From Campylobacteraceae bacterium (GTDB taxonomy: Bacteria > Campylobacterota > Campylobacteria > Campylobacterales > Campylobacteraceae): a stretch of DNA of 64,000 bases. The notes under the pieces were generated by a model. It ran no database searches, was not told the origin of the DNA, and worked only from the letters and a program-made list of their open reading frames with translations. The stretch spans positions 1 to 64,000 of the forward strand of contig JAAYPR010000038.1 of the NCBI GenBank assembly GCA_012519705.1. Reading direction: 5' to 3'. Shown here piece after piece: positions 1 to 28,081 of this stretch; positions within the stretch are counted from its first letter, which is position 1, and each line of letters starts with the position of its first letter. Position numbers and translations under genes: made by a program.

Positions 1-412
1 ACATATCATCAGTAAAGAACGCCCCAACTGCTTGTCTACCAACAGTTACAGTTGTTCCACCGATGTTGTATCCGAAATATGCTCTGTATAAATCGAAGTC
101 ATTACCGCCACTTCTTCCACCAGTTGAAGTACTTGTTGTTGTTGAAGTATCAGATTCATTGTATCTAATACCAACTACAGCAAAGAAGTTATCGTCGATT
201 TTAGTTTTAATGTCTAAAACACCTTTAAAATTCCACTGACCTCTAGTTGTAGTGTTTACGTTTCCATCACCCTCATCATGAGTATATCTTAATCTCGTGA
301 ATCCTGTTACATCTACATCTTTAATAGCTTCTTCTAATGGAACAGCTGAAGCTGTTGTAGCCATAACGCCTGCAGCCATAGCTGCTACTAAACTTAATTT
401 TACTAATCTCAT
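1..412 (-). CDS. porA: Major outer membrane porin (MOMP family), copy A, partial
   Basis: This is the N-terminal part (about 137 codons) of an outer membrane porin; the rest lies beyond the left window edge. It starts at the ATG ending at 412 with an AAGGAG ribosome site just upstream. A signal peptide (MRLVKLSLVAAMAAG...) is followed by the mature start PLEEAIKDVDV, which is the hallmark start of Campylobacter MOMP proteins. The protein is nearly identical to the same part of the next gene (1502-2746), including a Thr/Ser-rich segment around residues 89-98. The family forms trimeric beta-barrel channels for small solutes. Family assignment is strong; substrate preference cannot be read. Confidence 0.85.
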   Translation of the reverse strand, partial: MRLVKLSLVAAMAAGVMATTASAVPLEEAIKDVDVTGFTRLRYTHDEGDGNVNTTTRGQWNFKGVLDIKTKIDDNFFAVVGIRYNESDTSTTTSTSTGGRSGGNDFDLYRAYFGYNIGGTTVTVGRQAVGAFFTDDM

Positions 413-447
413 TTTAGAACTCCTTGTTAAAATTAATAAGATTGCTG

Positions 448-460
448 TAATCTTAGCATA
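448..460 (-). promoter_or_regulatory. Candidate promoter of porin copy A
   Basis: On the minus strand TATGCTAAGAT gives an extended -10 element (TGC-TAAGAT), with the hexamer at 450-455, about 38 bases before the porin ATG. The corresponding place upstream of copy B has diverged (TGCTACTAT), so the two porins may not be expressed equally. No good -35 is visible, which is normal for Campylobacter sigma-70 promoters. Confidence 0.45.
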
Positions 461-560
461 AAAAACTAGAGTTTATGCTTAAATAAATCTGAAATTTACC
501 GGATTATTGCCAAAATGTTGCCAAATATTTACCAAAAAGGTAGTTTTTGAAAGAATTTGA

Positions 561-628
561 GTAAAAGCTAGAGAGGTTTTACCCTCTCTGTAGCTGAAAG
601 GAAGTTCTAATACTTAATATTAATTTGC
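561..628 (-). ncRNA. Candidate small RNA upstream of porin copy A
   Basis: On the minus strand a perfect TATAAT (635-640) precedes about 68 bases ending in a hairpin (arms AGAGAGG / CCTCTCT inside flanking AGCT...AGCT, 567-595) followed by TTTTAC. No ORF is visible. The single-stranded part contains CTTCCTTTCA (595-604), complementary to Shine-Dalgarno sequences. The same block with its -10 box and hairpin is kept at 2893-2961 although flanking bases have changed. Promoter, unstructured seed and terminator hairpin together suggest a trans-acting sRNA. Transcription start is inferred from the -10 position. Confidence 0.5.
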
Positions 629-764
629 AAGATGATTATATACTTTATAGGTAAATGGTTGGAAATGATTTTGTGTTTTGAATTTAAGAGTTTTTATTTT
701 GTGAATTTATAGATAAGAATTTATTAAAGTAGAAATCTTATAAATTTATCAAGCCTTTATTTGA

Positions 765-1501: not shown

Positions 1502-2746
1502 TTAGAAGCTATATTTTGCTTCAAATCTAACTCTTTCGTTTTCGTAGCCTCTGTTGGCCACTCTGTTGTAGCCATCATCTTCAACCCATGAATACCATGT
1601 TTTAAAAGTTAGGTTTTTGTTGTGTTTATAAGTGACTCTAGCGACAACTTCTTGCATATCAAAGTCTTCATTGCCAGCACCCAAATCATAAGTTCTCTCA
1701 CCACTCACATAGTCGACGCCAAATGTCCAGCCCGTATCAGGGATGGTATAAGCTGCCGCTACAAACCATGCCCAGTTCTCACCTCTGTAAAGTGAGTAGT
1801 CAAGCAGTTCTTCGCCTGGGCTTATAAATTTACCTTGATCTTCAAAAGAAGTCACAGATAGGTTGTCTGTATCGGTTGAGAAGTTTAGATAACCAGCTGA
1901 GAAGTCAAAACCAAAAGCACTTGTTGAAGCCTTGATAGCGTAGAAGTCTGAGTCGTCTGCTGCGTTGCCTGTGCCTTCTTTAAAGCTATTTTTTAAATCA
2001 GCAAACGCATACTGACCCATTAACCCCACTGACCACTCATCAGTGATATCAAAGCTTGTTGCCAACTCAGTAACAAATAGAGCACCAACATCTTCTAGTA
2101 TAGAGTACCATAGTTGGAAGCTCACTGGGTCGTAGTTGCCTAGAGCTGCGACACCGTAAAGGTTGTGGTCTGTAACAAGTTTGCCATTTACTCTATCAAC
2201 AACCCCGCCCCTTATACCATCGCCGTTTAAATCAAGTCCACCTATATCGCCATCATCTTCAAAAACATCAAACCAAACAGCTGCCAAAACTAAGCCTTCA
2301 ATGTCTGTGTTTACAACCGCGATACCATCACCATACATATCATCGGTGAAGAACGCTCCAACCTCTTGTCTACCAACAGTTATAGTTGTTCCGCCAACGT
2401 TATATCCAAAATATGCTCTGTATAAATCGAAGTCATTACCGCCAGTTCTTCCACCAGTTGAAGTACTTGTTGTTGTTGAAGTATCAGATTCATTATATCT
2501 AATACCAACTACAGCAAAGAAGTTATCATCTATTTTGGTTTTGATATTTAGCTCACCTTTAAAGTTCCATTTGCCTTCACTTTTGTTGTTGACTTTGCCA
2601 CCCTCTTCATCGTGAGTGTATCTCAGCCTTGTAAAACCTGTCACATCTACATCTTTAATAAGCTCTTCAAGCGGGGCTGCTAAAGACGCCGTAGTCATAA
2701 TGCCTGTAGCCATAACTGCTACTAAACTTAGTTTTGCCAAACTCAT
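1502..2746 (-). CDS. porA: Major outer membrane porin (MOMP family), copy B
   Basis: This is a full-length 414-residue outer membrane porin. The ATG ending at 2746 was chosen over an upstream in-frame start because GGAG lies a few bases before it and a clean signal peptide (MSLAKLSLVAVMATG...) follows. The mature protein begins PLEELIKDVDVTG, is rich in alternating beta-strand residues and ends in an aromatic residue (KYSF), as expected for barrel insertion. Features such as DIEGLVLAA, NLYGVAALG and the C-terminal EVVARVTYKHN follow the Campylobacter MOMP pattern. Copy A lies downstream on the same strand, so these are tandem paralogues, useful for antigenic or permeability variation (inference). 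Confidence 0.88.
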   Translation of the reverse strand: MSLAKLSLVAVMATGIMTTASLAAPLEELIKDVDVTGFTRLRYTHDEEGGKVNNKSEGKWNFKGELNIKTKIDDNFFAVVGIRYNESDTSTTTSTSTGGRTGGNDFDLYRAYFGYNVGGTTITVGRQEVGAFFTDDMYGDGIAVVNTDIEGLVLAAVWFDVFEDDGDIGGLDLNGDGIRGGVVDRVNGKLVTDHNLYGVAALGNYDPVSFQLWYSILEDVGALFVTELATSFDITDEWSVGLMGQYAFADLKNSFKEGTGNAADDSDFYAIKASTSAFGFDFSAGYLNFSTDTDNLSVTSFEDQGKFISPGEELLDYSLYRGENWAWFVAAAYTIPDTGWTFGVDYVSGERTYDLGAGNEDFDMQEVVARVTYKHNKNLTFKTWYSWVEDDGYNRVANRGYENERVRFEAKYSF

Positions 2747-3099
2747 TTTATACTCCATGTTAAATTTAATAAGATTGGTAAAATAGTAGCACAAAAATTT
2801 TCAACCTTTCTATAATGAAAGTTTAAAAGTTACTAAATTGTAACTAAAATGATGCCGAATGTTTACTAAAAAGATAGTTTTGTAAGAATTTAAGAAAAAG
2901 CTAGAGAGGTTTTACCCTCTCTATAGCTGAAAGGAAGTTCTAATACTTAATATTAATTTGCAGGATAATTATATACCTTGTAGGTAAATGGTTGGAAATG
3001 GTTTTGGGTTTTGAATTTAATGATTTTTTCTTTTCTGAATTTATAGATAAGAATTTATTAAAGTAGAAATCTTATAAATTTATCAAGCTTTCATTTGAT
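2747..3099. repeat. Second copy of the porin upstream segment (tandem duplication arm)
   Basis: This stretch is an imperfect copy of 413-764, most clearly from the AGCTAGAGAGG hairpin (2899) to the GGATTGCTTC repeat (3100). The period between the two porin ATGs is 2,334 bases. The duplication therefore includes the porin gene and about 350 bases upstream, and its outer edge coincides with a hairpin repeat at 765 and 3100. The conserved parts are the hairpin, the CTTCCTTTCA segment and TATAAT; intervening bases differ, so the duplication is not recent. Confidence 0.75.
2893..2961 (-). ncRNA. Candidate small RNA upstream of porin copy B
   Basis: This is the duplicate of the 561-628 element. 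TATAAT at 2968-2973 on the minus strand is followed by the same AATTAATATTAAGTATTAG segment, the CTTCCTTTCA seed and a hairpin at 2899-2928 with a TTTTTC tail. Two loop-proximal bases differ from copy A, but the stem is intact. Conservation of promoter, seed and terminator over duplicated, otherwise drifting DNA supports a functional RNA. Confidence 0.5.
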
Positions 3100-3392: not shown

Positions 3393-3740
3393 TTAAAAGT
3401 TTATCTTAGTATTTTGCGGAACTGGGACAAGTGACTTTGACTTTCTGGATTTATCCGCTGGAGCTGCTCCATAGTCAACTATAGGTCTAAAAGAGACTAT
3501 ATAGTTATCTTTTAGAGTTATCATCGCTGGTCTTGATGAGTAAGCTATATATGAGTTTGCTTGATACGGCACACCTGAAGAGATGAAGCTACAGATATAC
3601 TCACTTCCACTTGGCTTACATGCAATGCTGTTAGCCTTTAAGATTTGACTTTCGTCTTTTTTTGGCTTTACTGAGCTTGGGTTTGTCGTCACACAGCCTG
3701 TTAAAAAAAGTGCTGTTATAAAAACAGTTAGTTTTTTCAT
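3393..3740 (-). CDS. Small predicted lipoprotein, function unknown
   Basis: This is a 115-residue protein with a lipoprotein signal peptide: a short hydrophobic stretch ends in the lipobox LTGC with Cys16 as the predicted lipidated residue. A Thr/Ser/Lys-rich linker follows. The mature domain has two further cysteines (in ACKPSG and YICSF) that could form a disulfide, and the tail is basic. I do not recognise the family. It stands alone between repeat clusters, about 480 bases downstream of a DUF2130 gene on the same strand. Envelope anchoring is the only inference that can be made. Confidence 0.65.
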   Translation of the reverse strand: MKKLTVFITALFLTGCVTTNPSSVKPKKDESQILKANSIACKPSGSEYICSFISSGVPYQANSYIAYSSRPAMITLKDNYIVSFRPIVDYGAAPADKSRKSKSLVPVPQNTKINF

Positions 3741-27959: not shown

Positions 27960-28081
27960 TTTTACCTCTGTTTAAATCTCTGTTATATAATCTCTTAAGA
28001 ATAATACTTTTTTTTAAACAATGTTTGTATATTACACAAATTTTGCTAAAATTCACACAAATTTGTAATGAAAGGAAGAAA

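Follow-up and report, generated by a model that had tools for sequence, protein, structure and literature searches.

The window, as we call the whole stretch of DNA analysed here, covers 64 kb from the start of a 132-kb contig in a 1.72-Mb genome. It contains two genes for MOMP porins, both on the minus strand, and upstream of each, co-directional and about 150 nt off, lies a copy of a predicted small RNA (sRNA). Reading along the minus strand, the order is lipoprotein, sRNA B, MOMP B, sRNA A and MOMP A, and the duplicated unit would consist of an sRNA and a porin, sited after the small lipoprotein gene. The features are:

2–412, minus strand: MOMP A porin gene, truncated at the contig end (PF05538, Campylo_MOMP, E 7e-42)
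414–425, minus strand: AAGGAGTTCTAA, ribosome site of MOMP A, complementary to the sRNA seed with one bulged base (duplex comparison)
450–458, minus strand: TGCTAAGAT, extended -10 of MOMP A's own promoter (sequence)
496–533, minus strand: four GGYAA repeats with 11-bp spacing, upstream of MOMP A (20/20 match, 0/200 shuffles)
560–628, minus strand: sRNA copy A, predicted 69-nt transcript (model match E 2.4e-12, copy A being included in the model)
566–595, minus strand: terminator hairpin of copy A, then a T-run (folding)
595–604, extended match 596–610, minus strand: seed CTTCCTTTCA of copy A (sequence, relatives)
635–640, minus strand: TATAAT -10 box of copy A (sequence)
650–665, minus strand: 11-bp direct repeat TTTCC-N6-TTACC before copy A, a possible regulator site (TTRCC-N6-TTTACY-N9-TATAAT in relatives)
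1502–2746, minus strand: MOMP B porin gene (PF05538, Campylo_MOMP, E 3.3e-102)
2830–2867, minus strand: degenerate GGYAA repeats upstream of MOMP B (15/20 match)
2893–2961, minus strand: sRNA copy B, predicted 69-nt transcript (model match E 1.2e-11, copy B lying outside the model)
2899–2928, minus strand: terminator hairpin of copy B, then a T-run (folding)
2928–2937, minus strand: seed CTTCCTTTCA of copy B (sequence)
2968–2973, minus strand: TATAAT -10 box of copy B (sequence)
2983–2998, minus strand: 11-bp direct repeat before copy B (conservation in relatives)
3393–3740, minus strand: small lipoprotein gene, a neighbour that the sRNA retains in relatives (locus comparison)

The contig breaks off inside MOMP A at window position 1, perhaps because of a near-identical porin repeat, and the assembly may be missing further porin copies.

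We took the bounds of each sRNA as the predicted start and the end of the T-run; in both copies TATAAT lies 7–12 nt ahead of that start, and folding of the complete sRNA gives a z of about -2. A sequence-only reading of this DNA had proposed one sRNA per porin, each with a TATAAT, a pyrimidine-rich segment and a terminator hairpin. All of this is present at 560–628 and 2893–2961, one copy upstream of MOMP A and one of MOMP B, and we add that both lie on the minus strand. The same reading held that the linking bases had drifted; within the RNA just 2 of 69 positions differ (97.1% identity), and drift is confined to the flanks. As the spacer between sRNA and porin is 70.9% identical between the two units, the first 411 nt of the MOMP genes 83.0% and the segments upstream of the sRNA 83–87%, the sRNA is the best-conserved part of the duplicated unit.

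Directly next to both sRNA promoter regions (678–740 and 3013–3074) lies an intergenic repeat, of which more than 20 matches are dispersed through the genome, and similarity of the two units beyond about position 678 is partly due to this repeat and not to the sRNA. It is very improbable that the likeness of the copies as a whole reflects part of such a repeat rather than a gene. The repeat does adjoin the element and accounts for some of the upstream similarity, but its matches stop some 38 bp short of the -10 box. The sRNA part itself occurs at no third place in the genome. A model built from the window genus alone (R2) gave strong matches to the two sRNA copies and to nothing else in 437 kb of the window genome, and the sRNA part recurs across genera, so that model searches of both the relatives and the window genome contradict the repeat as an explanation.

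To follow this recurrence we examined the regions upstream of MOMP genes in the window genus (g1) and then surveyed 100 genomes of the family. The same layout returns: TTRCC-N6-TTTACY-N9-TATAAT, a variable linker, AACU(U)CCUU and, in nearly all cases, a hairpin. The terminator stems keep their position after the seed and are unrelated in sequence between species; they do not align, which is why they were folded singly, species by species, and covariation on a MAFFT alignment was not used. A sequence-only model of 18 sequences (R1) matched strongly in 14 of 14 window-genus genomes and 48 of 48 genomes of the sister genus g4, as well as in many genomes of g2, g5, g10 and others, and R2 recovered sites outside its training set in the window genus, g4 and g5. 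Taken together, synteny and profile reveal a counterpart of the sRNA in most of the family's genomes that were searched. When the sRNA was compared directly with 100 relatives by BLAST, the matches were mostly weak and were informative only upstream of MOMP, and a pattern scan of wider genome contigs gave mainly chance matches, of use for just a few Campylobacter records. In one scanned record (L107; JAADDG010000093.1, titled Campylobacterota bacterium) two pattern matches, at 977–1043 and 1193–1261, lie about 200 bp apart and are possibly another tandem sRNA pair.

The family-wide comparison of promoter, seed and terminator thus gives good support to the original call of an sRNA with an anti-Shine-Dalgarno seed. 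Judged from sequence, the element is genuine: a family-wide sRNA belonging to a known kind, which in this genome forms two sRNA–porin units and is predicted to be transcribed. The neighbourhood recurs as well: a small lipoprotein gene ending in ..VPxxExISF stands close before the sRNA in many genomes outside g2. The window lipoprotein, for which a Pfam search gave no match, is tied to those of the relatives solely by its lipobox, its place and its C-terminal motif (hhalign E 2.8e-5 over 17 columns). Duplicated sRNA–porin units are present in a second genus, g2, where seven genomes (G042, G109, G121, G124, G117, G032 and G135) have two distant MOMP loci, each with its own sRNA copy.

The co-directional position of the sRNA, about 150 nt upstream of each porin, and the complementarity of its pyrimidine segment to the porin A ribosome site would also suit a 5' leader or attenuator of the porin mRNA, which would start at the upstream TATAAT, set read-through by the hairpin and act as an anti-Shine-Dalgarno in cis. 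Each porin, however, has its own TGnTAnnAT promoter, sited after the sRNA terminator. Moreover, the element lies far from MOMP in two genomes (G004 and G008) and about 1.2 kb from it on the opposite strand in a third (G002), with complementarity to the porin kept. On the strength of these relocated copies we set the leader model aside as decidedly improbable. Within the stretch read in each of four further genomes (G130, G134, G151 and G153), no porin start was found after the element.

The promoter of this separately encoded sRNA carries a repeat whose form, TTRCC-N6-TTACY, is the reverse complement of the GGYAA-N6-GGYAA found before MOMP A and, in similar form, before other MOMP genes of the genus. 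Direct repeats of 11 bp suit a response regulator of the OmpR type. Because the repeat is common to both promoters, inverted, and has this spacing, sRNA and porin may share a regulator. In g1 and g2, MOMP upstream regions (for example L052 and L056) also have TTAAG-N6-TTAAG before the porin -10 box, which we take to resemble a site of the HP1043/CosR type.

The known sRNA that this architecture recalls is CjNC140 (CJnc140) of C. jejuni, a 73-nt, northern-confirmed RNA directly upstream of porA; its CUCCUU binds the AAGGAG in both CjNC110 and p19 mRNA (PMC3656092, PMC3847290, PMC10470494). It regulates p19 positively, and its mutant has unchanged PorA; a BlastN comparison reportedly found it in none of the non-thermotolerant Campylobacter examined, and it has been linked to thermotolerant host adaptation (PMC10470494). 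Genomes of g2 have a jejuni-type porA leader with an element directly upstream. We infer that this site is CjNC140 from its place, size and motif rather than from sequence identity. When all g2 sequences were left out of the model (R3), the top rank in 400 kb went to the jejuni-type site that lies upstream of porA in one g2 genome (G129; E 0.002), and R3 also gave the best match in most of 20 g2 porin loci. R2, built from window-genus sequences alone, did not detect the jejuni-type g2 site; the kinship is therefore distant, and its basis is intermediate sequences together with synteny. A search against Rfam found tRNAs alone above the gathering score in the window, and nothing relevant at relaxed thresholds.

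The window elements resemble CjNC140 in lying directly upstream of, and co-directional with, a MOMP/porA gene, in having at the sequence level their own promoter and an intrinsic terminator with a similar length (69 nt predicted, about 73 nt in the family), and in a pyrimidine-rich anti-Shine-Dalgarno seed. That seed, CUUCCUUU, is one base longer than the CUCCUU of other genus members and sister genera, reading CUUCC instead of CUCC; profile similarity to the jejuni-type site is seen solely through the intermediates in R3. The two RNAs differ in that sequence similarity is scant outside promoter and seed, and in that the window sRNA is duplicated, matches the porin ribosome site more strongly and occurs in a genome where p19, a known partner of CjNC140, was not found. 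We put at about 0.8 the probability that these elements represent two paralogous genes, each encoding a short, separately transcribed, trans-acting sRNA of the CjNC140 family, acting likely via Shine-Dalgarno regions. The sequence-only reading is well supported in its sRNA call and correct on one copy per porin; it overlooked both the conservation of the element across the family and its relation to CjNC140.

What such an sRNA would act on is best approached through the porin start regions. In the window the sRNA segment UUAGAAC-(U)-UCCUU can pair with AAGGAGUUCUAA before MOMP A, the extra U of the seed forcing a bulge in the duplex; in g4, CUCCUUUUAAGG can pair with CCUUAAAAGGAG before MOMP. 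Across clades, the assignment of each sRNA to its cognate MOMP had the lowest mean duplex energy of 120 permutations. We ranked predicted targets among 324–398 sampled genes per genome, about a quarter of the window genome being sampled. By best helix, MOMP ranked 4/398 in the window genome, 8/324, 5/359 and 19/356 in three others and 223/356 in the jejuni-type genome (Fisher p 4e-4); by plain energy the window porin ranked 24/398, not the single best target (Fisher p 2e-3 over genomes); and by pairing beyond the AAGGAG core, with comparison genes limited to those having AAGGAG before ATG, MOMP ranked 1/55 in the window, 1/71, 2/54, 5/46 and, jejuni-type, 48/48 (Fisher p 0.002 over all five genomes), all these p-values being indicative only, because we settled on the measures in the course of the analysis and tried several of them, and because the genomes are related by descent. 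The last place in the jejuni-type genome agrees with the published unchanged PorA of the CjNC140 mutant. At the start of porin B, TGGAGTATAAAATG, the seed match is lost (rank 355/398), and porin B has probably escaped control by the sRNA.

The sequence-only reading had favoured a different target, an aldo/keto reductase, on the basis of a perfect ten-base seed match in its ribosome site region (28069–28078). The match is there: the 10-mer TGAAAGGAAG occurs three times in the window against 0.29 expected, in both sRNA copies and at this site only. A perfect 10-nt match is nonetheless found in 3 of the 398 sampled genes, the reductase included; a close relative of the reductase exists in just 1 of 13 other genus genomes, and the start region of that relative was found to have no seed site. 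We therefore rejected the reductase, and the rankings suggest porin A as the better target candidate. We also rejected p19, since its family (PF10634) was not found in the window genome. Seed matches are present in many genes, and in the genus we found no other full 15-nt seed complement and no single genus-wide target carrying one. Two further possible targets came to light in relatives: a 12-nt seed match at the start of a gene resembling a methionine-synthesis sulfhydrylase (G122, C1, about 761 kb), and a match with an 18-pair score at the start of a 'MKAKSFLFVPSIYPERF' gene (G129, C1, about 1.36 Mb).

Repression of porin A by the sRNA is, on these alignments, a serious possibility that we rate a little below an even chance. 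The same grade, just short of evens, goes to a CjNC140-type sRNA with no action on the porins, its seed serving other mRNAs or another sRNA and its linkage to MOMP being a matter of history. The unchanged PorA of C. jejuni, where the partners are CjNC110 and p19, the abundance of genes that match the seed, and the extra U relative to the porin site in part of the window genus speak for such a reading. It has to contend with four genomes from beyond the jejuni group in which the seed match of the MOMP start extends past the Shine-Dalgarno core, and with the absence of p19 here. In G004 and G008 the match is moreover retained even though sRNA and MOMP are not linked there, which speaks for action in trans. 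A tentative evolutionary scenario, to which we give perhaps one chance in three, is that the CjNC140 family was ancestrally porin-linked with repression of the major porin as its original job, seed and leader having co-evolved; the link would have been lost in the jejuni group, which would account for the negative PorA result in C. jejuni, and one porin would have escaped here after joint duplication.

Our model for the action of the sRNA is that it would be transcribed from its own promoter, whose 11-bp direct repeat resembles a response-regulator site, and end at the intrinsic terminator as a short transcript; its unpaired pyrimidine-rich seed would then most likely pair with Shine-Dalgarno regions and block ribosome entry. 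Such an arrangement has a counterpart in MicF of Escherichia coli, an anti-Shine-Dalgarno sRNA encoded beside the porin gene ompC and acting on porin mRNA. We claim no homology; MicF is encoded divergently from ompC, and its target is ompF. RepG of Helicobacter pylori and CJnc190 of C. jejuni, cited as sharing a style in which a pyrimidine-rich seed pairs with mRNA, are alike in that seed, and Campylobacter is without Hfq (PMC10470494). These two differ in genomic place and targets.

A family-wide counterpart changes the evolutionary story of CjNC140 as a thermotolerant-only sRNA, and makes many species available for seeking conserved targets of the family. The duplicated sRNA–porin units offer a natural experiment on the divergence of paralogues. 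The analysis also predicts that, outside the jejuni group, the major porin would be a target of the RNA.
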